Program-made: the position numbers and the translations under genes
IMG/VR virus record: IMGVR_UViG_3300034061_004858
Span: 1-43,195 of that record
Length of the DNA stretch: 43,195 bases
Source of the DNA: a virus
Strand: one strand, 5' to 3'
In this document: in pieces, positions 1 to 40,689 of the stretch
Layout: every line of letters starts with the position of its first letter
How positions within the stretch are numbered: position 1 is the stretch's first letter
The notes under the pieces: generated by a model
What the model was told of the DNA's origin: nothing
The model's input: only the letters and a program-made list of their open reading frames with translations
Database searches by the model: none

Positions 1-23
1 TGGGGCGCGTGCCGTCCGCCTTC
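1..23 (+). repeat. 3' end of DGR variable repeat with IMH-like core
   Basis: Positions 1-23 match TR 565-587 at 22 of 23 bases. The one difference is A583 in TR and C19 here. The first 18 bases (TGGGGCGCGTGCCGTCCG) contain no adenine and are GC-rich, as expected for the initiation-of-mutagenic-homing site. From position 24 the two sequences diverge. The single difference could be an A-targeted change or a fixed IMH/IMH* difference. Confidence 0.75.
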
Positions 24-465: not shown

Positions 466-467
466 CA

Positions 468-1760: not shown

Positions 1761-1761
1761 C

Positions 1762-2123: not shown

Positions 2124-2413
2124 ATCACCGTCCTGGTCTGGTGGTTCGGGTCGCTCTCATCGAGCGCGGAACTCCTAATTTGCTCCAAATTTGGCGATGG
2201 CTTGGTGTCGGCCGCTTCCAGAGACGCGATCCAGCTGTCGTACGACTCGCGCATCGGGATCTTGGCCGGCAGCTTCAGCCACTTCCTGACCGCAGTCGGA
2301 CAACGCAAGAACACGCTTGCGTTCTTGTCGTAAGCGATGAAGAATCGTCCGTTCCAATCCTTTCCTGTCTCCACGGTGGTGGATTGGCTGAGATGCAGTC
2401 GTTCGCGTTTCAT
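2120..2413 (-). CDS. Hypothetical protein after endolysin
   Basis: The 97-aa product starts MKRERLHLSQ and contains GKDWNGRFFIAYDKNASVF. The ATG (2413-2411) overlaps the endolysin TGA (ATGA), which fixes the start. A longer frame open to 2644 is only the shadow of the endolysin gene. No signal peptide or membrane helix is evident, and I do not recognise a family. As the last gene of the minus-strand block it may have a lysis or accessory role. Confidence 0.6.
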   Translation of the reverse strand: MKRERLHLSQSTTVETGKDWNGRFFIAYDKNASVFLRCPTAVRKWLKLPAKIPMRESYDSWIASLEAADTKPSPNLEQIRSSALDESDPNHQTRTVI

Positions 2414-3552
2414 GGCTTGCAGGTGAGATACCAGCCGCCGCTGCCGCCCGGCATCCAGCGCGGATTCCAGTTCTTGCGGCTGTAAACCACGCCGCCGCCC
2501 TTGGTGTTGTTGGCGTAGCCGCCGCCAACGAGCACGGCCTCGCCATTCGGATCGTTCTGGATCCAGGCGGCATCGGTGTAGCCGATGATCACGGACCAAT
2601 GCCCGCCGCCGCTGGGGGCCGTCACAGGACCTTTGTGCAGCCAACCCACGGCAACGGGCCGGCCTGCGTTGATCTCTTCCTCCAGCACTTTTGGGTTGCC
2701 GTTGGTGTGGAAGTCAGCTCGCAATCCCAAGGATCGCAACGCTGCCAACTGGGCCTCGGCTGATGTGGTGTCGCCAAACTTCTGGCGGATGGCGTTGTAG
2801 GCGTCGTCGCCCACCACCTTCCCCCAGAACATGGCGAGCATGGCGCAGCTGGAGGAGAAGCACTCGCGGTAGCCGCTGCCGCTCTTGTTGTCGTTCTGGC
2901 TCTGCCAGCGCACGTTCAGTGGGTTGCGTGGCAGGGCCTCCCCCTGGCCGGGCCGCTGCTTGCGCATCAGCTCAATCAAGAGATCGGCGTAACGGGGGTT
3001 GGTGGCGTACCCCTGGCGCTGGAGCTCACGCGCGGCCGCTTCGGCACTGCTGCTGTTGTTGACGCCGCGGTAGGTCTTGCCGTTGGCCGTGAAGTCCCGA
3101 TACCAACGGTCCACCAGGTACGCGACGCACTCATCAAGACTGCGGAAATCAAGGAACTCATCGGTGATGGTGATGGTCTTGCCATTCACCACCTCAGTTG
3201 TTTTGTGCGATGAGCCAGGGCCTTTGAGCCCGAAGTAGTTGTGGCGGCCGCTGGTGTGCTTACCCCAGCCAGACTCAAGCGCCCACTGCGCGGCGACAAG
3301 GGAACACCACTTGGCCCCAGCTGTTTTGGCCGCGGCTTCCACCCCTGCCCAGGTGTTGGGTGCAGGGCTGACCAACACCGGCTCTCGCCAAACATCTACC
3401 CATTCAGATGATTCAGTGAGCAGCCCGGGGTCGGCTTGTTTGATCTGCCGCCCCAGCTTGACGATCGCGTTGATTTGGTGCTCGAGGCCTTTGTAGTTCT
3501 GCCAGAACTGCAGCCACCGTTCATCGGTGAACTGGACTTGTTCGATCGGCAT
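2410..3552 (-). CDS. Two-domain endolysin: glucosaminidase plus C39-type peptidase
   Basis: The product has 380 aa. Residues ~60-200 match the FlgJ/LytG glucosaminidase fold: AAQWALESGWGKH with probable catalytic Glu93, then HNYFGLKG and the later YATNPRYADLL segment. Residues ~215-380 look like a papain-type C39 peptidase: Cys231 seven residues before Met238 (the C-x6-M spacing), GHWSVIIGY with His318, and Asp334. Together these would cut peptidoglycan glycan strands and peptides. No signal peptide is seen, so export would need a holin. It follows int by 30 nt. An endolysin in a lysogeny-type operon rather than with the virion genes is unusual for a T7-like phage. Confidence 0.85.
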   Translation of the reverse strand: MPIEQVQFTDERWLQFWQNYKGLEHQINAIVKLGRQIKQADPGLLTESSEWVDVWREPVLVSPAPNTWAGVEAAAKTAGAKWCSLVAAQWALESGWGKHTSGRHNYFGLKGPGSSHKTTEVVNGKTITITDEFLDFRSLDECVAYLVDRWYRDFTANGKTYRGVNNSSSAEAAARELQRQGYATNPRYADLLIELMRKQRPGQGEALPRNPLNVRWQSQNDNKSGSGYRECFSSSCAMLAMFWGKVVGDDAYNAIRQKFGDTTSAEAQLAALRSLGLRADFHTNGNPKVLEEEINAGRPVAVGWLHKGPVTAPSGGGHWSVIIGYTDAAWIQNDPNGEAVLVGGGYANNTKGGGVVYSRKNWNPRWMPGGSGGWYLTCKP

Positions 3553-3582
3553 CTGCTGCAGGTCTCTGCACCATCAAACCGT

Positions 3583-4572
3583 TCATCCCTCGAGCGCTGC
3601 CACACACGCTGCAAGAGCATCGGTCTGCAGGTGCAGGTAGCGCTGCACAGAGGCCAGCGACGTCCACCCGCCGAAGCTCATCAACTGGTGCAGGGGGATG
3701 CCGCGGGCAGCCAGCTTGCTGGCGCAGGTGTGGCGCGTGGTGTGCACCGACAGTGCCTCATCCTCACCGCAGCCGATCGCTTCCTTGGCCTTCTGGAACA
3801 GGCGCTGAAACTCCCAGTAGCGGTAGGAGAACACGGTCTGCCGGCGAACAGCAGGGATGTGGGGCTCGAGAGCTTGCACGGCTCGGGCCGTGAGTGGGAC
3901 CGATCGGGTCCGGTTGGCTTTGGTTTCGGAGAACGTGACCTTTCTGTTCACCAGGTCCACGTCCTCGCCACGCAGGCGCTCGACCTCGCCCCAGCGGGCG
4001 CAGGACTCGAGCAGAAACACCAGGCAGTCGGCCGCGGCGGCATGGCCGATGCTCACCAGGTAGTGGCACATGCCATCGCGTTCTTCATCGCTGATCACCC
4101 GGTCCTTGGTGTTCTTGAGCTTCAGCTGTTTCGGGAACTGGGGTGTGGTGGTGATGTGCCCGCGCAGCTGGGCATCGGAGAACATGGCCCGCAGCGCTGA
4201 CACCTTCTTGTTGACGGTGGCTGGGCGGTTGCCCGAAGCCAGCAGATGGCGCCGCCAGGCGTCGATCTGAGGGGTGCTGATGTCGGTCAGCAGGGTGTTG
4301 GCGCCGAAGTAGTCGACAGCGGCCTGGCTGTAGAGGCCGGCGGTGCGTTCAGAGCTGCAGCCACGCCAGCGAACATCCATCGACAGGCGGCGTGCATCCT
4401 GCAGCGAGAACAGGGGCAGCGGGCTGGCTTCCTTGTGCAGCAGCAGCTCGAGCAGCTCACGCTTGCGGCCCAGGGCCTCCTGTTTGGTCTTGCAGAGAGC
4501 GGTCTTGCGTTGGCCAGCAACGGTCACATCAGCGACCCAGCCGGTGGGTGTGCGGCGAACAGAGCCAGACAT
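3583..4572 (-). CDS. int: Tyrosine-recombinase integrase
   Basis: This is a 329-aa phage integrase. The N-terminal ~60 residues look like an arm-binding domain, and ~75-150 like a core-binding SAM-like domain (QIDAWRRHLLASGNRPATVNKKVSALRAMF). The catalytic set is complete: Arg193 (CARWGEVERL), Lys218, His277 and Arg280 (HTTRH), Trp303 (GGW) and nucleophile Tyr312 (YLHL). It is preceded by the shared CA-rich leader (4591-4573) and lies 26 nt downstream of the MarR-type gene, so the two probably form one transcript. The likely attachment site is the tRNA-Leu fragment at 13475, about 9 kb away. Confidence 0.95.
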   Translation of the reverse strand: MSGSVRRTPTGWVADVTVAGQRKTALCKTKQEALGRKRELLELLLHKEASPLPLFSLQDARRLSMDVRWRGCSSERTAGLYSQAAVDYFGANTLLTDISTPQIDAWRRHLLASGNRPATVNKKVSALRAMFSDAQLRGHITTTPQFPKQLKLKNTKDRVISDEERDGMCHYLVSIGHAAAADCLVFLLESCARWGEVERLRGEDVDLVNRKVTFSETKANRTRSVPLTARAVQALEPHIPAVRRQTVFSYRYWEFQRLFQKAKEAIGCGEDEALSVHTTRHTCASKLAARGIPLHQLMSFGGWTSLASVQRYLHLQTDALAACVAALEG

Positions 4573-4591
4573 GGTGCAGGTGGTTGTTGGG
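4573..4591 (-). promoter_or_regulatory. CA-rich translation leader of int
   Basis: On the minus strand CCCAACAACCACCTGCACC ends at the int ATG. It shares CCCAACAACCACC with the leaders at 8020, 8788 and 10179 and has no Shine-Dalgarno sequence. Confidence 0.6.
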
Positions 4592-4598
4592 TGTGCGG

Positions 4599-4916
4599 TC
4601 AGAGCTCAAGCAGCTGTCGTTTCAGCGCTTTGCCCTTGGGGGTGAGGAAGGCGATGAACCGTCTGCCTTCCTCTGGGTCTTTCTCGGTTGTGACCAGATC
4701 AAAGCCTGGCCTGCCCTTTCTGTGTTGATCACCCAGAGCGTGAACGGTCCGGGATACGGCAGAGGGCGAGAGGTTCAGCTTGTCCTCGACGAACTTGAGG
4801 GTGCATGGCTCGTTTTCGGCGATGACCAGGAAGACTTGGGCGAAGTGGGCATAGAAGTGAGTGGGTTCCAGGACAGCAAACAGGCCCAGAGCCCGGTCCA
4901 GTTGACGAAGATCCAT
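4599..4916 (-). CDS. MarR-type winged-helix regulator
   Basis: The 105-aa protein has a compact MarR-like winged helix: helix-turn-helix around residues 38-62 (LKFVEDKLNLSPSAVSRTVHAL), a wing at ~70-88, and LTPKGKALKRQL at the end, which is typical of the last MarR helix. It is shorter than the ~140-aa family norm and lacks most of the dimerisation helices. It lies directly upstream of int, so it may control integration. The perfect palindrome ACTCCTAGGAGT sits 18 bp upstream of the start and is a candidate operator. Confidence 0.75.
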   Translation of the reverse strand: MDLRQLDRALGLFAVLEPTHFYAHFAQVFLVIAENEPCTLKFVEDKLNLSPSAVSRTVHALGDQHRKGRPGFDLVTTEKDPEEGRRFIAFLTPKGKALKRQLLEL

Positions 4917-4933
4917 GGCCCAAAGCGAGCGCG

Positions 4934-4945
4934 ACTCCTAGGAGT
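4934..4945. promoter_or_regulatory. Palindrome ACTCCTAGGAGT, candidate MarR operator
   Basis: A perfect 12-bp palindrome lies upstream of the MarR-type gene start (4916). A near copy (CTACCTAGGAGT) is at 9746-9757 in the divergent control region. Regulators of this family usually bind palindromes in their own promoter. Binding is inferred. Confidence 0.45.
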
Positions 4946-5101
4946 GTGGCACTTGCGCACTGCAAGCTGAGCAGGCGTCGTTGCAGGGGTAAACCACAGC
5001 TCGAACCCAGCCCAGGACTGGCGCCATGGCACTTCCAGCGATAGGAGGAGGGCGTAGTGCATCTGCATTGTATTTGTCGCAGGTGAGAAGCATTGCACCT
5101 A

Positions 5102-5125
5102 GGCGGCCAGTTGGTGCTGGCCGCC
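5102..5125 (-). terminator. Strong hairpin after the KilA-N gene
   Basis: GGCGGCCAG and CTGGCCGCC form a perfect 9-bp stem around a 6-nt loop, 20 nt past the KilA-N stop on the minus strand. No T-run follows, so it may be a weak terminator or an mRNA-stabilising stem. The rest of 4917-5145 holds no gene. Around 5070 on the minus strand TACAAT could be a -10 element for the MarR-int transcript. Confidence 0.4.
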
Positions 5126-5145
5126 AGGGATCCTCTGCAGCGTTA

Positions 5146-5733
5146 TCAGGCGGCCACCCTGCGCTTCACGTCCACCGCCGGGATGGTCCGCATCAGCCGG
5201 TCCACCATCGCCAGCAGCCTCTTTGAGTCCTCCATGCACTCCACCGCCAGCGACACCACCTCTCGCGTGGTGGTGGCAGGGCTTCCCATCAGTCCGGCCA
5301 CACGATTGAGGTTGTCTCCGATCTGCGAGCAGGCCAGGCCGATCACGGCCGCGGCGTCATCGGGTGTCACCGCCAGGTCGAGCTGAACGGGCTTGGCCTT
5401 GGCCTCAAGCTCCTCAAGGATCCAGCCATCCATCCAGACAGCGAACTCGGGTGAGATCCAGCGGGCCAGGTCCACGGCCAGGCGCGGATGCACCCAGGTG
5501 CCACGACCGGCGTTGGGCCCGGTCACCACGGTCTGGGCCAGGAGGTCGGCCGGAATTCCGGTCGACCCCTGCAGCGCCTGCATGTACTCAGTGGCTCGCA
5601 GGTTGACTGCGTAGTGGTGCCAGCGGCGCCCAGCCACTTGGCACATGGCCGTGGCGTTGACGTAGCCATCGGCGCGGCGGCGCTGAATGGCGTGCCCGTT
5701 CCATGAACGGGTCACGAGCGCAGAGCTCTTCAT
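5146..5733 (-). CDS. KilA-N domain protein, antirepressor-like
   Basis: The product has 195 aa. Residues ~10-110 carry the KilA-N pattern: RRADGYVNATAMCQVAGRRWHHY, then GTWVHPRLAVDLARWISPEFAVWMDGWILEEL. KilA-N is a DNA-binding domain common in temperate-phage antirepressors and regulators. The C-terminal ~85 residues form a helical region with no recognised family. It lies between an HTH gene and the MarR-int pair. A role in the lysis-lysogeny decision is inferred from domain and place. Confidence 0.85.
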   Translation of the reverse strand: MKSSALVTRSWNGHAIQRRRADGYVNATAMCQVAGRRWHHYAVNLRATEYMQALQGSTGIPADLLAQTVVTGPNAGRGTWVHPRLAVDLARWISPEFAVWMDGWILEELEAKAKPVQLDLAVTPDDAAAVIGLACSQIGDNLNRVAGLMGSPATTTREVVSLAVECMEDSKRLLAMVDRLMRTIPAVDVKRRVAA

Positions 5734-5769
5734 GAGTTTTCAGATCATCGGAGGCCTGCTGCTGCCAGC

Positions 5770-5792
5770 AGGTGTGTGCAGCATAAGCACAC
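5770..5792. promoter_or_regulatory. Dyad upstream of the KilA-N gene
   Basis: GGTGTG (5770-5775) pairs with CACACC (5787-5792), and an overlapping register GTGTGC/GCACAC also pairs. It lies ~40 bp upstream of the KilA-N start in the 188-bp gap 5734-5921, which has no gene. The position suits an operator. Confidence 0.35.
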
Positions 5793-5921
5793 CGGCCCTG
5801 CTGCGGTCAAGGGGTGCCGGGCCTCCAGTGGGGTTTCAGGGCAGCCCCGATGAAGCCACCCACCCCTGCGCTTCTTCCCTCTCGGAGGTGTTGTATCCGC
5901 GCCGACCCGGCGTGATCGAGC

Positions 5922-6269
5922 CTAGGAGAGGCGCTGCAGCGGCTTCCCTTCGATGCCATACAGCGTGATGAGCTGCCGAGCGCTCTCCCCCAGCAGCAGC
6001 TGATTCCCGAGTCGGTGCGGGTGAGGCCGTGTGCGCAGCCAGCTGACCGGGCAGCCACTGCAGCGGCCTTTGCCTCTCAGCCGGCTGGCCAGTTGGGTAG
6101 CGGTCGACTGGCTCACGCCCATCACCGCCATGAAATCGGACACGTGATCAGCCTGGCCAGCGGCCACGCGCACCAGGGCCTCGAGTTGCTGCACCGTCAG
6201 GTCCGGGTCTGCGGTTCTGGCCGCGGCGAGAAAGGCCGCCAGATCGGCGGCCGTGTTCAGGTTCGGCAT
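5922..6269 (-). CDS. Small HTH regulator
   Basis: The ATG at 6269 gives 115 aa, starting 4 nt after the stop of the RlpA-like gene. Residues ~43-66 (VSDFMAVMGVSQSTATQLASRL) form a helix-turn-helix of the MarR/winged-helix kind. A short Cys-containing loop (GRCSGCPVSW) follows, and the end (ARQLITLYGIEG) resembles the final MarR helix. A frame open further upstream overlaps the previous gene and is less likely. This is a second regulator in the lysogeny block; its target is unknown. Confidence 0.65.
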   Translation of the reverse strand: MPNLNTAADLAAFLAAARTADPDLTVQQLEALVRVAAGQADHVSDFMAVMGVSQSTATQLASRLRGKGRCSGCPVSWLRTRPHPHRLGNQLLLGESARQLITLYGIEGKPLQRLS

Positions 6270-6273
6270 GGCG

Positions 6274-6600
6274 TCAGGGGTGGGTGATCTGAACCGTTGC
6301 GGTGCCATCGAGCGGCACGCCAAGGCGCTGGGCAGCGCCGGCGCTCAGGTCGATCGAGTCGCAGTCGCAACGGTCTGTCACAGGCACGGTGAGCACGCGG
6401 CCTTGGTGGCTGACCCGAACACGGGTGCCGCATGGCAACCACGGGTGAGCAGCACTGATTCCCCAGTGCTGATAGGTGTGGCCGCAGGCGGTCTGCCGGC
6501 CGTGATACCAGCCGTCGTAGACGGTGGCGGTGACGTGTCGGCCGCCGGCGATCGCAGGCGTGATCGGCTGCAGCAGCAGCAGTAGCAATGGGATGCGCAT
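6274..6600 (-). CDS. Secreted RlpA-like double-psi beta-barrel protein
   Basis: This is a 108-aa protein. Residues 1-18 (MRIPLLLLLLQPITPAIA) are a signal peptide with an AIA cleavage site. The mature part has the RlpA-type barrel pattern: TATVYDGWYHGRQTACGHTY, PCGTRVRV, VTDRCDCDSIDLSAGAAQRLG. RlpA domains act on or bind peptidoglycan. Four Cys residues could form disulphides outside the cytoplasm. The start at 6600 is chosen because the signal peptide begins there and the CA-rich leader ends there. A second barrel of this type is fused to the gp15-like virion protein. Confidence 0.75.
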   Translation of the reverse strand: MRIPLLLLLLQPITPAIAGGRHVTATVYDGWYHGRQTACGHTYQHWGISAAHPWLPCGTRVRVSHQGRVLTVPVTDRCDCDSIDLSAGAAQRLGVPLDGTATVQITHP

Positions 6601-6619
6601 CGGCTGGTGGTTGTTGGTG
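6601..6619 (-). promoter_or_regulatory. CA-rich translation leader of the RlpA-like gene
   Basis: The minus-strand sequence CACCAACAACCACCAGCCG ends at the ATG. It shares CCAACAACCACC with the other leaders. A CACATGTGC core lies just upstream (6640-6632). Confidence 0.5.
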
Positions 6620-6658
6620 AGGGAAGGGCAGCACATGTGACGCGCTGCCCGTTTGCCA

Positions 6659-6838
6659 TCAGTCCGTGGCAGGCATCCCAACCTCAAGCACGTGAGCGCA
6701 GAGGTTCGAGATGCTGCGGCCTTGATCGAGTGCTGTTGTGATCAGCCTCTGGTGCAGGGCGTAACTGATGGTGATGGTGATTCGAGCGGGCTTTCGTTTG
6801 GCGATGGCCAGCCGATCACGTAGCGAGACAGGTTCCAT
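6659..6838 (-). CDS. Ribbon-helix-helix DNA-binding protein
   Basis: The ATG at 6838 gives 59 aa. After a basic N-terminus, PARITITISYALHQRLITTALDQGRSISNLCAHVLEVG fits a CopG/Arc-type ribbon-helix-helix: a beta strand of alternating residues, helix A, turn, helix B. Such proteins bind DNA as dimers and often repress their own operon. A frame extending to 7003 overlaps the hairpin and the small membrane gene and is rejected. Confidence 0.7.
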   Translation of the reverse strand: MEPVSLRDRLAIAKRKPARITITISYALHQRLITTALDQGRSISNLCAHVLEVGMPATD

Positions 6839-6871
6839 AGGACCCCTCTGGTGACACAGGGCAGGTGAGCC

Positions 6872-6903
6872 CTGCAGAGAGGGCCCGCAGGCCCTCAGTG
6901 CAG
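6872..6903 (-). terminator. Intercistronic hairpin, copy 1
   Basis: The stem CTGCA..GAGGGC / GCCCTC..TGCAG has a 6-nt loop and a GA/AG internal mismatch. The same element recurs at 8057-8086. It sits just past the small membrane gene and has no T-run, so it may be a processing or stability element rather than a terminator. Confidence 0.5.
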
Positions 6904-6906
6904 AGA

Positions 6907-7035
6907 TCAGGGCCCGGTGTGCTGACCGGTGGCCGGTTGGGCCGTGAGGGCCCCTTGTGGCGGCTGCTGTGCAGTGGTGAACAGGATGCCCAGGCAAAAC
7001 CAAATTGCGAACAGGGCGAGGCGGTTATGGGTCAC
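6907..7035 (-). CDS. Small membrane peptide
   Basis: The GTG at 7035, 3 nt after the ArdC stop, opens a 42-aa frame: MTHNRLALFAIWFCLGILFTTA and then a Pro/Gln/Gly-rich tail. Residues ~5-22 make one membrane helix or signal anchor. The tight spacing and hydrophobic start support a real gene, but no family is recognised. Confidence 0.4.
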   Translation of the reverse strand: MTHNRLALFAIWFCLGILFTTAQQPPQGALTAQPATGQHTGP

Positions 7036-7038
7036 TGA

Positions 7039-8019
7039 TCAGGCCTCCTCGATCACTTCAGGGCCGCAAATCATGTTTGCCGCCTTGGTGGCATCGCTCA
7101 GCACCTTGAACAGGACCTTTGGCCCTTCTTTGAGCACCTTTGCCCAGCTGTCCAGATAGGCGGCATGGTTCTCAGTGCTGCTGGGGATGGCCAGCCGGTT
7201 GCAGATCAAGAAGGCGCCGAGTTCGGCTACCAGTTCTTCGCGGGCGTAGTCATCAGAGCCAAACGGGTTGCCCAGCTTGCGAGCCAACCTGCTGCTGTGG
7301 CCGGTGCTGTGCACCTGCTCGTGAGCCCAGGTTGCATAGAGCCCAGCACCGCTCGAGAACTGCGCTCGAGTTGGCATGGTGATCGCATCCGTAGCGCTGC
7401 TGTAGAAGGCGCGATCACCGCCCCACGTGGTGGCCACCTGCCATCCACCTAGGACCTGTTCAGCATCAGCCAGCCGCTCAGGTTCAGGCTTGACGATGAC
7501 AGCACCGGTGGCCGCGGCGATCGCAGCATCCAGCGACTGCTGAGCCTCTTCGTCACGACCCACCAAGTCCGCGACATTGAACACACACGCCGGCTTGTAA
7601 CTGACCCATGCCGCAATCAGCGGCTGGCCATCAGGGCCCAGCACCGGTTTGCCGTTCTCATCCTCCTGGGCCCGTTTGTTCAGCTGAGGCCTGAGCACGT
7701 AGCAGCCCTGCGAACCCTTGCGGGGATACCAGCCCTTGCCCTTGGCTTGAGCACAGCCCAGCCACAGCGGCAGGTTGTACCCACGGCAGGCGGCCCACAT
7801 TTCGAGCACTGCAGGGTTGCTGCCCCGATAGGCGGCACCGGTCAGCAGGTTGCGGTGCTGGCCCTGCAGCCCCAGCTGTGCCCACTCTCGCCGCCAGGGG
7901 TTTACCCCTCGCTCAAGCACCTCAATCAGTGCTGTGCACAGCTTCTCTTCAGCGCTGGGGCCGTCATACGTGCGGCGTTTCTTTGCAGTCGCCTTCTTTG
8001 TCTTGGTGGTGGTTGTCAT
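7039..8019 (-). CDS. ardC: ArdC-like antirestriction protein
   Basis: The product has 326 aa. Residues ~20-150 match the ssDNA-binding N-terminal domain of ArdC (NPWRREWAQLGLQGQHRNLLTGAAYRGSN, then GWYPRKGSQGCYV). Residues ~180-310 are the metallopeptidase-like domain with the zincin motif HEQVH (233-237), STGH, and a downstream EELVAELGA helix supplying the third ligand. ArdC proteins protect incoming DNA from host restriction. The start follows a 21-nt CA-rich leader identical to that of the clamp gene. Confidence 0.85.
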   Translation of the reverse strand: MTTTTKTKKATAKKRRTYDGPSAEEKLCTALIEVLERGVNPWRREWAQLGLQGQHRNLLTGAAYRGSNPAVLEMWAACRGYNLPLWLGCAQAKGKGWYPRKGSQGCYVLRPQLNKRAQEDENGKPVLGPDGQPLIAAWVSYKPACVFNVADLVGRDEEAQQSLDAAIAAATGAVIVKPEPERLADAEQVLGGWQVATTWGGDRAFYSSATDAITMPTRAQFSSGAGLYATWAHEQVHSTGHSSRLARKLGNPFGSDDYAREELVAELGAFLICNRLAIPSSTENHAAYLDSWAKVLKEGPKVLFKVLSDATKAANMICGPEVIEEA

Positions 8020-8040
8020 CAGTCGGTGGTGGTTGTTGGG
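8020..8040 (-). promoter_or_regulatory. CA-rich translation leader of ardC
   Basis: On the minus strand CCCAACAACCACCACC followed by GACTG abuts the ATG. All 21 nt are identical to the clamp-gene leader at 8788-8808, and the identity runs on into ATGACAAC. There is no purine-rich ribosome site. Confidence 0.7.
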
Positions 8041-8056
8041 TTACAGGCGATGAGGC

Positions 8057-8086
8057 CTGCAGAGAGGGCCGAAGCCCTCAGTGCAG
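8057..8086 (-). terminator. Intercistronic hairpin, copy 2
   Basis: CTGCA..GAGGGC-CGAA-GCCCTC..TGCAG has a 6-bp GC stem with a CGAA tetraloop and a second 5-bp stem. It lies between the clamp-like gene and the ardC leader and is the same element as 6872-6903. Confidence 0.55.
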
Positions 8087-8097
8087 ACGTCAGCCCC

Positions 8098-8787
8098 TCA
8101 CTTGCGGATTTGAACCGGCATCAGCAGGTACTCGAGCTCACAGCCCTCGAGCGCCGGCAGCTCGCAGCTGCTGCTGAACACCAGTGGTGTGGTGGGTGAG
8201 TTGCATTCCATGCGAACCACACCGTTGTGGCTGTAGCGACTCACCTCAGCCAAGAACTGGCCGAGATAGCTCGCATTCCATGCGATCGCGCCACCTGCTG
8301 CGTTCTTGAACTTGTCAGGCCACAGCTGATCGAGCTGCGGATACGCGTAGCAATCGGCGGCATGTTTCCAGGGCCTGGCCTCGATCAGATCAGCAGGCGG
8401 GAACTTGCCTCCCTTGCTGATGCGACCGCCAAGCACCTCCGCCACACCGCGGTCGCTCACCAGGGCCCAGTGGCCATGCGCAATCCGCTTGCGGAAGCTC
8501 GCAGCATTCAGCAACAGCTGCTCACGCTCGAGATACCAGTGCTCACCAGCAGACAGGCGGAACCTGAATGCACGGTGCCCATCGGTCGACTCGATCGTGA
8601 TCTGTTCGCCCGTCCGCCGCACGCTGATCAGCTGCAGCGCCTGTTTGGTCTCATCACGGCTGGCGAACTGCGCGGCCACATACAGCACCTGCGCAGGTAG
8701 GCAGGCGATCGTGCCCTCGCTACCGGCTAGCTGCATCAGCTGCAGCTCGCCAGCGCTTTTGTTCATCAGCTCAGTGGCAGTTGTCAT
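8098..8787 (-). CDS. Sliding-clamp-like protein (DnaN-related)
   Basis: This is a 229-aa protein. The C-terminal SSSCELPALEGCELEYLLMPVQIRK closely follows the end of bacterial beta clamps (Y-L-L-M-P-V/M). Internal segments such as ITIESTDGHRAFRFRLSA and NASYLGQFLAEVSRYSHNGVVRME match clamp-domain strands. At ~230 aa it is about two clamp domains, not three, so the ring may be a trimer or the protein may be a clamp mimic. The start at 8787 follows the CA-rich leader. It is the only replication-accessory gene in the minus-strand block and matters because no DNA polymerase gene is seen. Confidence 0.7.
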   Translation of the reverse strand: MTTATELMNKSAGELQLMQLAGSEGTIACLPAQVLYVAAQFASRDETKQALQLISVRRTGEQITIESTDGHRAFRFRLSAGEHWYLEREQLLLNAASFRKRIAHGHWALVSDRGVAEVLGGRISKGGKFPPADLIEARPWKHAADCYAYPQLDQLWPDKFKNAAGGAIAWNASYLGQFLAEVSRYSHNGVVRMECNSPTTPLVFSSSCELPALEGCELEYLLMPVQIRK

Positions 8788-8808
8788 CAGTCGGTGGTGG
8801 TTGTTGGG
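8788..8808 (-). promoter_or_regulatory. CA-rich translation leader of the clamp-like gene
   Basis: It is identical over 21 nt to the ardC leader at 8020-8040 and abuts the ATG at 8787. A GTGCA dyad lies just upstream at 8821-8840. Confidence 0.7.
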
Positions 8809-8820
8809 CAGGCAAGGCGC

Positions 8821-8840
8821 AGTGCATCTCACCTGTGCAC
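8821..8840 (+). promoter_or_regulatory. GTGCA dyad site 1
   Basis: AGTGCATCTCACCTGTGCAC differs at one base from the site at 10667-10686. It begins 34 bp from the clamp-gene start, at the left edge of the divergent control region. Confidence 0.5.
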
Positions 8841-8909
8841 CGTTCTAACACCACCTGCCACAAGTGCGTCAACTAGCGGGCCGGGCGCGCGCGTCGTCTT
8901 GGTTAGGAA

Positions 8910-8924
8910 TGGGAATCATTCTCA
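8910..8924. promoter_or_regulatory. Fur-box-like inverted repeat
   Basis: TGGGAAT-C-ATTCTCA fits the 7-1-7 Fur-box architecture (TGATAAT-N-ATTATCA). Its two arms are complementary except at one position. It is an AT-rich island in a GC-rich control region. Binding by host Fur is inferred from the match only. Confidence 0.35.
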
Positions 8925-9437
8925 GGTCGTTTCGACGGCCGATGCCACCTGCAGCCCTGCCCTCAGCGCGACGCCAGCCGGGCTCAGCCGGTGCTCACCC
9001 AGGCATCAAGCGACCCCAGCAGCTGACCCGCAGGGCTCACCCGCCTGCAGGCCAGGCCCAGCAGCTGTCAGCGCCTGTTCAATCCGCAAACAACCCAGGC
9101 CAGCGCTGGCCCCGGGCCCTCAGCTCTGCCGATCGCTGCGCAGTCGGGCCAGCAGGGCCCCGGCGGCCACCACCAGGGGCGGGCCGGCAGGGCCACGCCA
9201 GCGGCCACCAGCTGCCCCGGCAGGGCCCCGCAGGGGCAGCGCCTGCCCTCCTCTGCCACGGCCTGGCCTCAGCGGGCCGCAGGGTGCAAGCAGGGGGGCA
9301 TGGGGGGAACCCGGACCGCACGCGCTTCAGCCCCGCTACCAGATCACGCGAGGCAAAACGGGGTGAGATGAGAAGGCATGAGGGGTGATTGGTGGGGCGA
9401 AAGGTGAAGGGGGTCGGTGAGATGGGAGGGGTTAGAT

Positions 9438-9454
9438 CAGTGCAGAGGTGCAAC
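9438..9454 (-). promoter_or_regulatory. GTGCA dyad site 2
   Basis: The minus strand reads GTTGCACCTCTGCACTG, a divergent version of the GTGCACCTGTGCAC core, inside the control region. Confidence 0.3.
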
Positions 9455-9630
9455 CCAGTGGGGCGATGAGCCGTGGTGCGGGGGAGGCAGGGGCGTGTTG
9501 GGGAGGGGACGGGCGGCGAATTGCCACAGTGGGTTGGGATTCCGCGTTCCTGTTCCGAGGGTTTCCTCTGCCCGCGGAATAGAGATCCAGAGGGATCGGA
9601 GTAGGTGCCTAGGGGCGCAAGGGCTGGTTA

Positions 9631-9645
9631 GTGTGCACCTGTGCA
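9631..9645 (+). promoter_or_regulatory. GTGCA dyad site 3
   Basis: GTGTGCACCTGTGCA lies ~160 bp upstream of the winged-helix gene at 9805. The core GCACCTGTGCA is also found at 13530-13540. Confidence 0.45.
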
Positions 9646-9737
9646 TCGACGCACATACTCCACCCGGCAGATCCCTTGGTATGACAGGGCTGTTTTCCAA
9701 TACCAGTCAGGGACTGGGTTCTCAGCGTCTAGTACCA

Positions 9738-9782
9738 CCTAGGTACTACCTAGGAGTGAACTGCCGGTCTATGGGGCCTAGG
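9738..9782. promoter_or_regulatory. CCTAGG cluster before the 9805 operon
   Basis: CCTAGG occurs at 9738, 9749 and 9777, with a fourth copy at 9608. The first two are 11 bp apart, about one helical turn. The copy at 9749 sits in CTACCTAGGAGT, close to the palindrome before the MarR-type gene. This is a possible operator for that regulator. Confidence 0.35.
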
Positions 9783-9804
9783 GGCTAGGTCCCAGCAACC
9801 CCCA

Positions 9805-10170
9805 ATGACCACCACCAGCAAACCGTCGTTCGTCATGGTTCAACTCACGGACATCGACCGGCTCATGGAGCTCTTTGCCTCCAGAGAGCTCATGCACCGC
9901 GATGCGTCGGTGATCTTTGCTCTGATCTCCGGCACCGACACCTACAGCGGCAAGGTGCGGCTCACAGCCAATGCCCTGGCCAATCAGCTGCAGATCACAC
10001 CCAACGAAGCGCGGGCCGCCATCGCCCGTCTGAAGAAGCAGCACCTGGTCCGCCACATCAAGGACCCGAAGACCGGCGAGACCTACTACCGCCTCAATCC
10101 ATGGATGGTGCGATCCACCGGCAGCGTCGCCCTGCAAACCATGGCCATGCGTGAGTTCGAGGAAGCCTGA
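9805..10170 (+). CDS. Winged-helix protein, RepL/replication-regulator-like
   Basis: The product has 121 aa. Residues ~28-90 form a winged helix: SVIFALISGTDTYSGKVRLTANALANQLQITPNEARAAIARLKKQHLVRH, then a wing (KDPKTGETYYRLNPWMV). This is the pattern of plasmid RepL-type and similar replication or transcription regulators. It is the first plus-strand gene after the control region and is preceded by CCCAGCAACCCCCA, a degenerate form of the CA-rich leader. The role is inferred: the first regulator of the lytic side, or a replication factor. Confidence 0.7.
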   Translation: MTTTSKPSFVMVQLTDIDRLMELFASRELMHRDASVIFALISGTDTYSGKVRLTANALANQLQITPNEARAAIARLKKQHLVRHIKDPKTGETYYRLNPWMVRSTGSVALQTMAMREFEEA

Positions 10171-10178
10171 GCGCACAC

Positions 10179-10195
10179 CCCAACAACCACCACCG
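10179..10195 (+). promoter_or_regulatory. CA-rich translation leader (plus-strand copy)
   Basis: CCCAACAACCACCACCG directly abuts the ATG at 10196. It is the same leader as on the minus-strand genes and decides the start of the following gene. Confidence 0.65.
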
Positions 10196-10531
10196 ATGAA
10201 ACCGATCCGCATCAGCCAGCTCAATGCCGCCCAGGTGGCGGCCGTCTTCAAAAGCGAGCGCTTCTGTCAGCTCACCGATAGCCAGCTGGCGGCGCTGCAC
10301 CACCGCTCACAACAGCTCGAGGTGCAGCAGCAGTCCACGCTGCAACGCAAGCGTCGCCGGCACTGGATGATCGCCGCGGCCGTAGCGGTCCTGGTGGCCA
10401 TCGCACCCTTCTGGCAGATCGCGCTTGCGTTGTCCGCTGTCATCGCCATCTGGGCGTTGCTGCTCAGCGCTGCCTGGGGCGTTGTGCAGCGCCTGCGAAC
10501 CGCGCTGTCAGGGAAGAAGCCAGTGCCCTAA
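10196..10531 (+). CDS. Two-helix membrane protein
   Basis: The ATG at 10196 gives 111 aa. The N-terminal ~55 residues are soluble (SQLNAAQVAAVFKSERFCQLTDSQLAALHHRSQQLE). After a basic stretch (KRRRH) come two hydrophobic helices (WMIAAAVAVLVAIAPFWQIALALSAVIAIWALLLSAAW). The tail is basic. This resembles small inner-membrane phage proteins of unknown role, for example superinfection exclusion. A start upstream at 10151 would overlap the previous gene and ignore the leader. Confidence 0.65.
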   Translation: MKPIRISQLNAAQVAAVFKSERFCQLTDSQLAALHHRSQQLEVQQQSTLQRKRRRHWMIAAAVAVLVAIAPFWQIALALSAVIAIWALLLSAAWGVVQRLRTALSGKKPVP

Positions 10532-10597
10532 CCTGGCTCCAGCAGTAACAGGTGGTGCTGACTGCGACTGCAGCTATGGGGTGCTGTCCCCGCAGTT

Positions 10598-10647
10598 GTG
10601 GTTGTTGGGGGAAGCCCTCATCGTTCTTCGGAATGGTGAGGGCTTCC
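10598..10647 (+). ncRNA. Candidate regulatory RNA: anti-leader seed plus 17-bp UUCG hairpin
   Basis: GTGGTTGTTGGGG (10598-10610) is the exact reverse complement of the CCCCAACAACCAC part of the shared leaders. It runs straight into a stem at 10610-10626/10631-10647 capped by C(UUCG)G: 17 pairs in a row, two of them G-U. No gene covers 10532-10688. A plus-strand transcript would carry a seed able to pair with leaders of at least five genes. Alternatively it is an inverted copy of the hairpin-plus-leader element found between minus-strand genes. Confidence 0.4.
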
Positions 10648-10666
10648 TTGCATCTGCAGCACAATG

Positions 10667-10686
10667 AGTGCAACTCACCTGTGCAC
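10667..10686 (+). promoter_or_regulatory. GTGCA dyad site 4
   Basis: AGTGCAACTCACCTGTGCAC is 19/20 identical to the site at 8821-8840. It ends 3 bp before the ATG at 10689, so a bound protein or promoter here would act at the very start of that gene. Confidence 0.5.
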
Positions 10687-10688
10687 AA

Positions 10689-10898
10689 ATGCCCTACCTG
10701 ACCAACACCGAGCGATTGGCCCTTGGACTGGTGGGCAGCAGTGCGCCGGAGGAGGCCGTTGTGGCCGCGGCCCAGGGCGAGCCCGAGCAAGAGCAGTGCG
10801 AGCTCAGGTCTGCCAAGCGTGCTCGCAACCGGAAGGGCGAGTTCAAGGGCGACGACCCGGTCACCCCTGAGGTGAACGAGGCCTTTGAGGCTGAGTGA
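10689..10898 (+). CDS. Small acidic protein
   Basis: The 69-aa product is rich in Glu and Ala, with a basic patch (SAKRARNRKGEFKGDD) in the middle and an acidic end (TPEVNEAFEAE). A GTG at 10668 is possible, but that region is the GTGCA dyad, so the ATG at 10689 is chosen. Its stop overlaps the next ATG (TGATG). The family is not recognised; the position before terL is all that hints at a packaging link. Confidence 0.55.
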   Translation: MPYLTNTERLALGLVGSSAPEEAVVAAAQGEPEQEQCELRSAKRARNRKGEFKGDDPVTPEVNEAFEAE

Positions 10899-11068
10899 TG
10901 GAACCGTGCATGACGGTGCAAGCGCTTGAAGACGGCTGCTGCCGGGTGCGTTTGCAGCAAGGCCCCTATTCAGTGAGCTGCACCGTGTCATCCATGCACC
11001 TGGTGGAAGACAAGCGCTCGCAGTTGCTGCGGGCCTTGCAGGCAATGCAACAGGAACAGCAGGAATGA
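10898..11068 (+). CDS. Small hypothetical protein before terL
   Basis: This 56-aa frame starts MEPCMTVQALEDGCCRVRLQQGPYSVSC and ends in a Gln/Glu-rich helix. It overlaps its neighbours at both ends (ATG within TGATG; its TGA overlaps the terL ATG as ATGA), which supports a real coupled gene. The four Cys residues have no obvious metal-site spacing. Function unknown. Confidence 0.5.
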   Translation: MEPCMTVQALEDGCCRVRLQQGPYSVSCTVSSMHLVEDKRSQLLRALQAMQQEQQE

Positions 11069-12843
11069 ACTGGGAGCCACTTCCTGAGCAGCTCGAGCCG
11101 TTGGCTCATTTCGCCTGCTACATCCTCCGTGAGTTGAACCTGGCGGATACGCCAACCAAGCAACAACTAGGCATCCTGCGTTATCTCGAGGGTGGCCCGG
11201 ACCGCCAGATCATCACGGCCTACCGGGGTTGCGGGAAGTCCACCCTCACCGGCATCTATGCGCTGTGGCGGCTGCGGCGTGACCCCTTCAGGGAGAAGAT
11301 CCTGCTGGTGGGTGCCACGGCTGACAAGGCGGTGGAGATCAGCAACTGGATGCTGCGCCTGGTGCGCGACATCGACATCCTCCAATGCCTGCAGCCGGAG
11401 ACCGATGGCCGCAGCTCGGTGCAGGCATGGGACGTGGGGCCGGCGATCGTTGATCAGAGCCCGAGTGTCCGCGCTGTGGGAATCCTGTCCCCATCGCTCA
11501 CCGGCAAGCGGTGTACCTGCGCGATCGCAGACGACATTGAGACGTTGGCCAACTCGATCACACCCCTGAAGCAGGAGCGGCTGGCCGCGGCCATCACCGA
11601 ACTGGAGGCGATCAGGAAGCCGGAGGTTGAGGGGGAACTGCCAAAGCAGACGATCTTCCTGGGCACCCCGCACCTGGAGTCAAGCCTCTACCTGCGAATG
11701 AGGAGGGAGAGGAACTATCAGCAGCGGTTCTGGCCGGCGCGGTATCCCAACCCGGGGCAGGAGGACGAGTGGGATTGCTACGAGGGCTGCCTTGATCCGC
11801 TGATCGCTGCCGAGGTGGAAGAAGACGGCAGCCGCTCGGGAGAGCCGACCGACCCTGAGCGCTTCGGCCACGACGAGCTGCTGCGCCGCGAGATGTCCAT
11901 GACCCGGGCATCTGTGCAGCTGCAGTTCCAGCTGAACTGCCGTCTGTCGACCCTCGATCGCTACCCCATCCGACTCGGTGATCTGATCGTGATGGATCTC
12001 GACGGCAAGGCCCTGCCCGAGGTGGTGAGCTGGGCATCAGGGCCCGATCAGCGCATCCAGGACCTGGTGTGCGTCGGCCTGGGCGCTGATCGCTACTACC
12101 ACCGGCCGATGCTCACCCAGGGCTGGGTATCGCAGCAGGAGACGTGGCGCTGCGTGTTGTCGATCGACCCATCAGGCCGCGGCGCCGATGAACTGGCTTG
12201 GGCGGTGGTGGCCGAGCTCAACGGCAACCTGTTTGTGCTGGAGAGCGGCGGCACCACCCAGGGCTACGCGGAGGAGGTGTTGCGGCTGCTGGCCGAACGG
12301 GCTCGCCGCTGGGGCGTCAACCAGACCGTGGTGGAGAGCAACTTCGGCGACGGCATGTTCGAGGCGCTGCTGGCACCGGTGATGAACCGCGTGCACCCCA
12401 ACCCGATCGAACCGATCAAGGTGTCGATGCAGAAGGAGAGGCGCATCGTGGATGTGATCGCCCCGATCGTGCAGCAACACCGGCTGGTGATCAGCAGCGA
12501 GCTGATCAGAAAGGACTACCGAGAGGCCGAGCGCAACGCCGACAATGGCCACCAGCGTTCACTGATGTACCAGCTGAGCCGCATCACGACGGAACGTGGG
12601 GCCCTGGTCCACGACGACCGGATAGACGCGCTGGCGCTGGCGCTGCAGTTCTTCACTGAGGCCGCTGCCCAGGATCAGCGCAAGGCCCAGGCCACCCGTC
12701 AGGAAGAGCTCGAGGAGATGGCGCGGCAAGCGTTCTTGGATGAAGCAGGGGCCAGTATCGACCAGCTGGCCCTTGGGCTTAGGCCGACTGCTCGCGGTCG
12801 GGCGTGGGGCGGGGTGAAGCGTCCAGCTGTTGGGGCGGTCTGA
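11065..12843 (+). CDS. terL: Terminase large subunit, T7 gp19-like
   Basis: The product has 592 aa. The ATPase half has a Walker A motif AYRGCGKST (52-60) and a Walker B-like AIADDIE (153-159). The nuclease half opens with SIDPSGRGADE (Asp368), continues with VVESNFGDG, and ends with DDRIDALALAL. Motif spelling follows T7-type terminases, which package concatemers through the portal. Its place before the RNA polymerase gene is unusual, because T7 puts it at the end of the genome. The last 65 bp overlap the antisense small terminase gene. Confidence 0.92.
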   Translation: MNWEPLPEQLEPLAHFACYILRELNLADTPTKQQLGILRYLEGGPDRQIITAYRGCGKSTLTGIYALWRLRRDPFREKILLVGATADKAVEISNWMLRLVRDIDILQCLQPETDGRSSVQAWDVGPAIVDQSPSVRAVGILSPSLTGKRCTCAIADDIETLANSITPLKQERLAAAITELEAIRKPEVEGELPKQTIFLGTPHLESSLYLRMRRERNYQQRFWPARYPNPGQEDEWDCYEGCLDPLIAAEVEEDGSRSGEPTDPERFGHDELLRREMSMTRASVQLQFQLNCRLSTLDRYPIRLGDLIVMDLDGKALPEVVSWASGPDQRIQDLVCVGLGADRYYHRPMLTQGWVSQQETWRCVLSIDPSGRGADELAWAVVAELNGNLFVLESGGTTQGYAEEVLRLLAERARRWGVNQTVVESNFGDGMFEALLAPVMNRVHPNPIEPIKVSMQKERRIVDVIAPIVQQHRLVISSELIRKDYREAERNADNGHQRSLMYQLSRITTERGALVHDDRIDALALALQFFTEAAAQDQRKAQATRQEELEEMARQAFLDEAGASIDQLALGLRPTARGRAWGGVKRPAVGAV

Positions 12844-13069
12844 TCGGCACCACCTTTTCTTGCAGGGTGGAGAAATCGAGCTTGCCAGCCATTCGGCTCT
12901 TCAAGGCCTGCGTATCAGCTTCCGCAAGGCTGGCGGTGATGGAGTTCTGCTTGAGCAGCTGCAGGGCCAGCCGCAGATCTTCCGGTTCGCCGCCGAGCTC
13001 GACACGGTTCTTGATCGTGCGAACAACGGACTCGTGTAGCTCTTGAAGGTCCTGCGCAATGTCGGCCAT
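12779..13069 (-). CDS. terS: Putative terminase small subunit
   Basis: The ATG at 13069 gives 96 aa: MADIAQDLQELHESVVRTIKNRVELGGEPEDLRLALQLLKQNSITASLAEAD, a helical pattern like small terminases of T7-like and cyanopodovirus types (T7 gp18), which bind phage DNA and regulate TerL. It reads antisense to terL and overlaps its 3' end by 65 bp. The tail (PPQQLDASPRPTPDREQSA) is low-complexity. The call is by pattern and position. If the two are co-expressed they must come from convergent transcripts. Confidence 0.6.
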   Translation of the reverse strand: MADIAQDLQELHESVVRTIKNRVELGGEPEDLRLALQLLKQNSITASLAEADTQALKSRMAGKLDFSTLQEKVVPIRPPQQLDASPRPTPDREQSA

Positions 13070-13225: not shown

Positions 13226-13396
13226 ATGACCACCGCACAGAGGGAGGTTCGACAACTCAAACGTGAGCTGGCGGAGTCCGGCGCTGATCCGTTCGAGGTC
13301 GCGGCCCAAGCCTTGGCCGCCGCCCGGCGCTACCGGCTGCTGCTCGAGCAGCTGCAGGGCCGCACTGCTTGTAATGTGCCTGCGTCCACCGGATGA
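13226..13396 (+). CDS. Small helical protein
   Basis: The product has 56 aa: MTTAQREVRQLKRELAESGADPFEVAAQALAAARRYRLLLEQLQGRT, mostly two amphipathic helices with high charge. GGAGG lies 5 nt before the ATG at 13226, which decides the start against 13208. It is the only gene in the early part of this transcription unit before the polymerase. Family not recognised. Confidence 0.55.
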   Translation: MTTAQREVRQLKRELAESGADPFEVAAQALAAARRYRLLLEQLQGRTACNVPASTG

Positions 13397-13474
13397 GTTT
13401 TTCTGCGGGCAAAATCCGCAGTCTGCCGACGGTGGCTCTGCTTGGAATCCTTGAGATCCCTTGCGGCGCAACGG

Positions 13475-13513
13475 GGGAGCATGGCGGAATTGGCATACGC
13501 AGCGGACTTAAAA
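13475..13513 (+). other. tRNA-Leu(UAA) 5' half, putative attP
   Basis: The 39 nt contain GGCGGAATTGGCATACGC and CGGACTTAAAA, which fit the acceptor strand, D-arm and anticodon loop (CTTAAAA, anticodon TAA) of a bacterial tRNA-Leu. The 3' half is absent: the sequence after the loop does not complete the anticodon stem or T-arm, and instead forms a different hairpin (CGCAGCG/CGCTGCG, 13498-13522). Temperate cyanopodoviruses such as P-SSP7 carry a tRNA-Leu segment as attP. It lies just before the RNA polymerase gene but ~9 kb from int. Confidence 0.55.
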
Positions 13514-13529
13514 AGCGCTGCGCACACAT

Positions 13530-13540
13530 GCACCTGTGCA
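13530..13540 (+). promoter_or_regulatory. GTGCA dyad site 6
   Basis: GCACCTGTGCA lies between the tRNA-Leu fragment and the polymerase gene. A perfect 6-bp hairpin (CCAGCC/GGCTGG, 13556-13572) follows. Confidence 0.4.
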
Positions 13541-13593
13541 GAGCACTCGAAAAATCCAGCCCCAGAGGCTGGTCCACTCCCCCTGGAAATGCA

Positions 13594-13606
13594 GTGCACA
13601 GGTGAG
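13594..13606 (-). promoter_or_regulatory. GTGCA dyad site 7
   Basis: The minus strand reads CTCACCTGTGCAC, identical to the right part of sites 1 and 4 but inverted. It lies 36 bp before the polymerase start. Confidence 0.4.
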
Positions 13607-13641
13607 GTGGAATTGCTGCTGAAAGCACCAGTCTCTGCACG

Positions 13642-15948
13642 TTGGACACCCAAAAAAGCGCATCCACACCTGTGGAATTGCTGCATCGGCAGAGGCTGAA
13701 AAGGGAGGATGCCCGCGCCATTGAGCGGACTGGGGCCTACCACAGGCAGCTGATTGGTCAGGGTCGGGAGAGCGCTACGAGTTACGGGGCGGCCCTGTTC
13801 CGTCTCTATGGCGAGACGGTGAACATGGCGCTGGACGCGATGCTCACCCGGCTGCTGCAGAACCCCCACATGGGGGGCAAGCACCTGGGGGCATGGCCGC
13901 TTCTGTTGCACTTCTGCGATCGAGGCCCGCGCTCGATTGCGGCAATCGCCTTGGGCGTTGTGATCGATGGGATCAGCCGGCGGCCGCGGCGCAGTGATCT
14001 GGCGAAAAGCATCGGCCGGGCGCTGCAAGACGAGCACAAGGCCACCCGGCTTTACCAGCAGAAGGGTGTGGTGCTGCTCAACACCCTCAAGCGGAAGTTC
14101 GGTCGCAAGGCGATTGACCACCGCATCCTCAACGAGCTCTACGTGGACCCCAGCGGCTGGACGCAAAAAGAGCGCCGCGAGCTGGGCCAGCTGTTGCTGG
14201 AGGTCATTGCTGCCAACACCACGCTGATCCGGTTCACCAACGATCGGGTGCCCCTGGTTGAGCCAACAGAAGACGCGCTGGAGGTGGTCGGGCTCAACCC
14301 GCCCCGGCCGCTACCAGTGCGGATGATTCCATCCCTTCTGCCACCTGAGCCCTGGACGGATGTTGTTCGCGGCACGAAGGCGCTTGTGACCAGTCGCAAG
14401 CCGATGGATCTGAGCCACATCACGGCGAAGTCGGTGCAGACCGCGCTTCAGGTGGTGAACGCCGTTGAGCAGCAGCAGCTTCAGATCGACCCATGGATGG
14501 TTGAGCAGCAGCGGCAGGCGTGGGACGCGAACCTGCCTGACCTGTTCCCGGTGCAGCGCGACCCGTCCAGGGCGTCCGATGCCCACGCAGGTGCTGCGAT
14601 GCGTCAGCGAATTGAGGAGTCGATCCGCCAGGCCGAGGAGGTGGGCGCCTACCCGATCTGGCTTGAGCACGACTTCGACTTCCGGGGGCGTCTCTATTGC
14701 TCCAGCCGAATCGCTGGCCATCAAGGGCCAGACCACCAGAAGGCGCTGATCTCCTTTGCCCATCAGGAGCTGGTGGACGACGACGCCTTCAGGGAGATGC
14801 TGATGGCCGCGGCCGGGCACTACGGGCTGGGCCGGGGCAGCTGGGAAGAGAGAGAGGCCTGGGGCCGGGCCAACCTGCAGCTGATCCAGGCCGTTGCGGC
14901 CGAACCGCTCGACCGACTCGACCTGTGGAAGGGCGCCAAGGACCCTTGGCAGTTCCTGCAGCTGGCCCGGGCCATTGCCCTCTACCTCGATGGGGCGAAG
15001 TCCAGCGGCGTGCCGATCCGCTATGACCAGACCTGCAGCGGGCTGGGGATCATCGCGGCCCTGGCGCGCGACCGCCAGCTGGCCCGGCTGACCAACGTCA
15101 TCGGCGACAGCCGCGCGGACGTCTACTCCCACGTCGCCGAGCGGCTGCTGCAGCTGCTGCGTGCGGACCTCGACAGCCTGGATCTGCGGGATCGCCAGCA
15201 GGCCGAGCTGTGGCTGAAGCACAGCATCGACCGCTCGCTGGTCAAGGGGCCCGTGATGACGACGGTTTATGGGGCGCAGCGCTACGGGTTGGTCGAGCAG
15301 CTGGTCGCCTACCTCCAGGAGAAGAACCCGGATGTGCGCGTTAGCTACTGGCAGCGGGAGTACACCAAGCCAGCGCAGTACCTGGCCAGGAAGCTGCAGC
15401 TGGTGATCGGCGCTGAGCTCGGCAGCTGCATCGCCATGGAGGCGTGGCTCAGGGACGTGAGCCGCCGCTGCATGAAGCAGCAACAGCCGATCCGCTGGCT
15501 CAGCCCCATGGGCTTCCCCGTGTCCCTGGGGCGCCACGTGGAGGAGACGCAGACGGTCAGCACGGCGATCAATGGCAGCCGGCGCTGGCGCCGATTCGAC
15601 GCGGTTTACGAGGAGGCAGAGCTAAGCGCCAGGGCCACGAGCCGGGGCATCACGGCCAACACCATCCACACGTTCGACGCGGCCTTCTGCCACGGCCTGG
15701 TTCTCAGATGTGCATCTATCGGAACCCCGGTGCTGACGAACCATGACTGCTTCGCAACACTGCCGGCCCGGGCGGACTGGTTGCATCACACCTTGCATGG
15801 CGAGCTGCGAGCGCTGTATGCCACTGATTGGCTTGCTGAGATCCGGGTTGAGATTGGCAGAAATGCAGGTGTAGCCCTAGGGCACCCGCCTCTTGTTGGC
15901 GATCTTTGCGAGGGCGAGATTGGGCAGAACCCTTACTGCTTCAGCTGA
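13642..15948 (+). CDS. Single-subunit T7-like RNA polymerase
   Basis: The product has 768 aa. Catalytic elements are in place: DFRGR (346-350), motif A YDQTCSGLG with Asp462, motif B RSLVKGPVMTTVYG with Arg531, Lys535 and Tyr543 (the same spacing as T7 R627, K631 and Y639), and motif C HD at 701-702. The C-terminus ends CFS where T7 has FAFA. It would transcribe the phage's own late promoters. The start is uncertain: TTG at 13642, or GTG at 13672 (ten codons shorter). No clear ribosome site separates them. It is about 115 aa shorter than T7 RNAP, mainly in the N-terminal part. Confidence 0.93.
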   Translation: MDTQKSASTPVELLHRQRLKREDARAIERTGAYHRQLIGQGRESATSYGAALFRLYGETVNMALDAMLTRLLQNPHMGGKHLGAWPLLLHFCDRGPRSIAAIALGVVIDGISRRPRRSDLAKSIGRALQDEHKATRLYQQKGVVLLNTLKRKFGRKAIDHRILNELYVDPSGWTQKERRELGQLLLEVIAANTTLIRFTNDRVPLVEPTEDALEVVGLNPPRPLPVRMIPSLLPPEPWTDVVRGTKALVTSRKPMDLSHITAKSVQTALQVVNAVEQQQLQIDPWMVEQQRQAWDANLPDLFPVQRDPSRASDAHAGAAMRQRIEESIRQAEEVGAYPIWLEHDFDFRGRLYCSSRIAGHQGPDHQKALISFAHQELVDDDAFREMLMAAAGHYGLGRGSWEEREAWGRANLQLIQAVAAEPLDRLDLWKGAKDPWQFLQLARAIALYLDGAKSSGVPIRYDQTCSGLGIIAALARDRQLARLTNVIGDSRADVYSHVAERLLQLLRADLDSLDLRDRQQAELWLKHSIDRSLVKGPVMTTVYGAQRYGLVEQLVAYLQEKNPDVRVSYWQREYTKPAQYLARKLQLVIGAELGSCIAMEAWLRDVSRRCMKQQQPIRWLSPMGFPVSLGRHVEETQTVSTAINGSRRWRRFDAVYEEAELSARATSRGITANTIHTFDAAFCHGLVLRCASIGTPVLTNHDCFATLPARADWLHHTLHGELRALYATDWLAEIRVEIGRNAGVALGHPPLVGDLCEGEIGQNPYCFS

Positions 15949-40687: not shown

Positions 40688-40689
40688 CC

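Follow-up and report, generated by a model that had tools for sequence, protein, structure and literature searches.

A tRNA-Leu(UAA) half beside the RNA polymerase gene of a T7-like virus as a probable phage attachment site remote from its integrase gene

The 5' half of a tRNA-Leu(UAA) gene lies at positions 13475-13513 (+ strand) of the virus record IMGVR_UViG_3300034061_004858, whose whole stretch of 43,195 nucleotides is referred to here as the window. This segment is best read, with a probability of roughly 85%, as the phage attachment site (attP) of a tyrosine integrase encoded 8.9 kb away on the opposite strand. The complete attP would cover about 300 bp (13382-13676), with the tRNA half as its identity segment, and this extended assignment is regarded as equally probable. 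Such an attP is not a new element in itself; it is probably real and functional, and represents a known kind of element in a new layout. An earlier note on this DNA had proposed the site from the letters alone, and the proposal is now backed by known homologues (PMC8776855), by conservation in relatives, by the rigid spacing of arm-like sites and by an intact integrase gene.

The 39-mer GGGAGCATGGCGGAATTGGCATACGCAGCGGACTTAAAA runs from the acceptor 5' strand through the D-arm and the anticodon 5' stem to the end of the anticodon loop, CTTAAAA, which is present in full, and stops 128 bp upstream of the gene for a T7-like RNA polymerase (RNAP). Both the extent and the position of the half agree exactly with the earlier description. 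No complete tRNA was found in the window by ARAGORN, and no whole tRNA or other Rfam family was detected there, so that a complete or intron-bearing tRNA gene is ruled out. The Rfam tRNA model gave a match starting at 13475 that reached only 14 bits, against a gathering score of 29, which is what half of a tRNA should give. When the 61 bases around the half were compared with phage records by BLAST, they were 85-87% identical to full tRNA-Leu genes of the cyanomyoviruses S-SSM4 and S-SSM6b, and equally to the att regions of P-SSP7, P-SSP2, P-SSP3 and S-SRP02. The pattern read backwards, which served as a control of the same composition, returned zero matches, and the half is therefore not a product of chance.

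The setting of the half is that of a T7-like cyanophage of freshwater type. The window (62.6% G+C) encodes a single-subunit RNAP at 13642-15948 (+; PF00940, E = 6e-53), whose TTG start was assigned mechanically, so that the true start may lie later, and a T7-like terminase large subunit at 11065-12843 (+; PF22530, identified by profile and synteny). These features place it in the Autographiviridae, in the neighbourhood of S-SRP02 and Stopalavirus. The freshwater phage S-SRP02 (MW822601; PMC8790148) was the nearest named isolate found, with an RNAP 48% identical to that of the window, and the RNAP of the uncultured phage MedDCM-OCT-S38-C3 (AP013548, a Stopalavirus; group G9 of PMC3861242) is 52% identical.

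In the T7-like cyanophages P-SSP7 and S-TIP37, the 39-bp first half of tRNA-Leu serves as attP downstream of the integrase gene (int), and both phages integrate there during lytic infection, although no stable lysogens were obtained (PMC8776855). Deletions in S-TIP37 demonstrated that int and attP are both required for integration (PMC8776855). A tRNA-Leu match of 39 or 42 bp had already been described in metagenomic contigs of cyanophages (PMC3861242). The window resembles P-SSP7 and S-TIP37 in the 39-bp first half before RNAP, in the tyrosine integrase and in a MarR-like gene beside int. It differs from them in that their int is directly upstream and collinear, as is typical of tRNA-Leu attP sites in T7-like cyanophages, while that of the window is remote and inverted, and also in its 3' core and in having terminase as the left neighbour of the site. 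S-SRP02 shares the same attP architecture, including a first right-arm site 17 bp past the half, but its int is collinear and 1.35 kb upstream with a KilA-N gene between, so a position directly downstream of int is typical rather than defining; its arm spacing (51 bp) and core (ACCG) also differ. The paper describing S-SRP02 names no attP (PMC8790148).

Conservation among relatives provides the broadest support for the attP reading. About 50 related phage contigs were compared, and the half is kept beside RNAP. A scan of IMG/VR for an exact 31-base match gave 29 loci, which comprised 8 whole tRNA-Leu genes and 21 halves with a common break point; a relative of the RNAP was present on all 21 half-bearing contigs. 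A second scan required only GGACTTAAAA-N17-CACCNNTGCAGARCA and not the tRNA half. It yielded 36 loci (15 already seen), with RNAP on the right in 36/36 and the half present in all 34 whose left side was long enough to judge. Moreover, the half can be identical at 39/39 positions between phages whose RNAPs are only 60-75% identical. The positions that do vary are those of the D-loop and acceptor that vary among tRNA-Leu genes, as would be expected if the half and a host 3' half must form a working tRNA. In one pair of loci, L073 (G012) and L071 (G030), the right flanks are identical while the half differs by three substitutions, with further changes just to its left, a pattern that would fit an exchange of the left half or the tracking of another host tRNA allele.

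The alignment of relatives supports a complete site in which flanking sites at rigid distances would accompany a core dyad with the anticodon loop at its centre. The dyad (13498-13522, +) consists of C, CGCAGCGGA, at 13498-13506, the loop at 13507-13513, which would be the overlap region, and C', AGCGCTGCG, at 13514-13522. To the left are a conserved block GCGTCCACCGG (13382-13392, +), which is a possible P-arm site, and a block GAATCCTTGAGATCCCTTGC (13445-13464, +) immediately before the half, conserved around GAATCC-TGAGATCCCTTGC. To the right is P'1, CACCTGTGCAGAGCA (13531-13545, +), whose conserved motif is CACCNNTGCAGARCA; it starts 17 bp past the half in all tested relatives except G021 (18 bp) and the distant P-SSP7. 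P'2 (13593-13611, -) is an inverted copy of P'1 at a spacing of 62 bp, and a third block, GCATCCACACCTGTGGA (13660-13676, +), aligns as GCGTCCAC-CCTGTGGA. We infer that the integrase binds at the core and at these arm blocks. A short dyad, CCTTGC-N3-GCAAGG (13455-13475), just left of the half, occurs in several inverted-layout phages and is partly degenerate in the window; it is a possible binding site for a phage regulator.

Beyond the loop the tRNA sequence ends, and a different hairpin takes over, as previously noticed: CGCAGCG (13498-13504) pairs with CGCTGCG (13516-13522) around the same centre and is formed in the predicted fold. Since phages do carry tRNA-Leu genes and a hairpin follows the loop, the segment could be what remains of a phage-borne tRNA-Leu gene, or could act in transcribed form as a regulatory hairpin ahead of RNAP, rather than being an att site. 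This is considered highly improbable. All relatives break at a common base and none of them holds a whole tRNA, P-SSP7 and S-TIP37 use the homologous site as attP (PMC8776855), and the fold as a whole is unexceptional (z = -1.74). A conserved RNA hairpin after the loop was rejected, as its 3' arm is not kept in the alignment of relatives.

The right arm of the putative attP has a second aspect, which counts against the attP reading. It is built from the palindrome TCTGCACNNGTGCAGA, which recurs in the window at 13531, 20547, 35279 and other positions. This motif is intergenic in 12 of its 15 matches in S-SRP02, where 11% of the genome is intergenic, and in 15 of 30 matches in S38-C3, where the intergenic share is 7% (enrichment binomial P ~1e-9). 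Because the motif is spread genome-wide, it may not be an integrase site, and some of the sequence conserved to the right of the core may have a regulatory role; the view of the palindromes as sites for the integrase only is weakened as well. A doubtful but conceivable extension is that a single protein of the phage, such as the MarR-like product of the gene beside int, binds both the attP arm and the scattered palindromes and so couples integration to genome-wide transcription in a stoperator-like manner, or that the palindromes act as promoters for the phage RNAP, with the att site embedded in an array of them. The element CACNNGTG resembles the CAC...+1G of T7-family promoters, with an operator as the alternative.

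Two gene layouts were distinguished when marker proteins were mapped on all contigs. The collinear layout reads lysin(-) terminase(-) ... MarR(+) int(+) attP RNAP(+), and the inverted layout reads lysin(-) int(-) MarR(-) ... terminase(+) attP RNAP(+). Among the related contigs or genomes with a readable left neighbour, 26 have int upstream of attP and on its strand, whereas in 17, including the window, the block from terminase to int is inverted and attP still lies beside the polymerase gene. The separation of about 9 kb is thus unusual, in accordance with the earlier note. That note had also placed the polymerase gene at one prophage end, which is true but ordinary, since P-SSP7 and S-SRP02 likewise have attP between int and RNAP. 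In the window, the endolysin gene (2410-3552, -; profile and synteny) marks one breakpoint of the inverted block. An ArdC-like antirestriction protein with ArdcN and zincin-like metallopeptidase domains is encoded inside it (7039-8019), and the position of KilA-N relative to int also differs between the window and S-SRP02.

The possibility that an assembly artefact created the separation deserves mention, since the window is a metagenomic contig and, in one relative (G016), the same end is present in two strain versions. It is barely credible, however, as several separate contigs run unbroken from int to attP. The distance is 8.1-10.1 kb in the window and in G010, G017, G023 and G024, and about 6.5 kb in G038 and G041. 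In addition, S38-C3 shows the same gene order, and contig G034 matches the order lysin-int-...-terminase at 100%.

One branch of the RNAP tree (support 1.000) separates the two layouts and places P-SSP7 with the collinear phages; the simplest history is therefore one inversion from the collinear state, and this direction is what the sequences suggest. Core and arm follow the same division. The C' side is mostly TCNG in the collinear group, continuing the tRNA (ACCG in S-SRP02, GCTG in L127), and AGCGC in every inverted-layout relative that keeps the half. P'1 and P'2 are 51 bp apart in collinear phages and 62 bp apart in inverted ones (61 bp in G022-G024), so that the right arm of the latter is longer by about one turn of the helix. 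At the scan loci, the type of core goes together with the position of P'2 (+68 or +79) and with the gene to the left (int or KilA-N versus terminase) wherever these could be read. Given a single inversion, this perfect association of layout and core type weighs as one observation and not as dozens. No second att-like site that could drive an integrase-mediated inversion was found near int, the best 25-mer match elsewhere in the window being 17/25. A 22-nt imperfect direct repeat (95%), CTGCTTGAGCAGCTGCAGGGCC, at 12947-12970 and 13340-13363, lies on both sides of the intergenic region between terminase and attP, close to a breakpoint of the inversion.

The integrase gene (3583-4572, -; 329 aa; PF00589, E = 9e-21; phrog_1) keeps all catalytic motifs (ARWGE, TK, HTTRH, GGW and RYLHL). 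Among the remote-int phages (the window, G010 and G017) its dN/dS is 0.14-0.19; int is intact and under purifying selection. A conserved N-terminal stretch of about 45 residues, unnamed by Pfam and missing in P-SSP7 and S38-C3, might bind the arm sites. The MarR-like regulator beside int (4599-4916, -) was recognized from synteny and a weak match below the cutoff.

The selection on int bears on whether the site could be a relic, out of use since int moved away. Sister lineages of the same layout, namely S38-C3, G025, G026 and G032, lack a recognisable tRNA-Leu half, which indicates that the site can be lost. S38-C3 has the inverted order of the window, but its best match before RNAP is 23/39 and its integrase is shorter, without the N-terminal extension. 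Other tRNA halves were sought near int or RNAP in S38-C3 and near int in G025, and only chance Rfam matches appeared. These sisters, together with the lack of any observed integrated copy, speak for a relic and against attP. A relic is nevertheless improbable, as the half stays identical between divergent phages, the flanking sites stay in phase, int is selected and several lineages carry it at a distance.

Evidence from the host side also counts against the attP reading. The 40-mer and the GGGRGCA 39-mer were both absent from 84,980 species genomes in an exact search, in contrast to the perfect matches reported for marine phages, and with 0 exact matches the half did not help to name the host, as had been hoped. 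A search of plasmids gave one unrelated Collinsella match only. No attL or attR junction was found among the 36 loci with core and P'1, where the left flank was phage and never host wherever it was long enough. Integration in the window's own host is suggested by the sequence, and by analogy with P-SSP7 and S-TIP37, which integrate without forming lysogens (PMC8776855), it need not imply stable lysogeny.

If the site is attP, the tyrosine integrase would act in trans on the phage genome, so genomic distance would be no obstacle. It would pair the phage core with the tRNA-Leu(UAA) gene of the host, and strand exchange would likely occur within the dyad-flanked heptamer of the anticodon loop. 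After insertion, the phage 5' half and the host 3' half would rebuild a tRNA-Leu gene, and the displaced host 5' half would end up before the polymerase gene. One may speculate that a tRNA promoter then drives RNAP. In the inversion of the terminase-to-int block, int would have been carried about 9 kb away and turned around, with attP remaining beside the polymerase gene.

In a survey of integration among cyanophages, an att site was retained only if it directly followed int (PMC8776855); under that filter, lineages like that of the window would score as int without attP. The signature of core and P'1 at 17 bp, with an arm spacing of 51 or 62 bp, finds attP without the position of int or a host tRNA. 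Moreover, the two layouts, set apart by a single inversion, an altered C' half-site and roughly one turn of the helix, form a natural comparison for testing how much uncoupling of int and attP is tolerated by phages that integrate without stable lysogens.

The ends of the window were clarified by contig G034, which is 100% identical to positions 34991-43195 and 1-13013 and bridges the two ends over 89 bp; the map accordingly closes at about 43.3 kb. A diversity-generating retroelement is located at this junction. Its template repeat (447-600) lies beside a reverse transcriptase gene (723-1760; PF00078, phrog_1423), and its variable repeat spans the join (43187-43195/1-30), as seen in G034 from position 8197. 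The window ends therefore probably reflect an assembly break at this hypervariable repeat. Template and variable repeat differ at 24 of 118 bases, and all 24 differences fall at template adenines.
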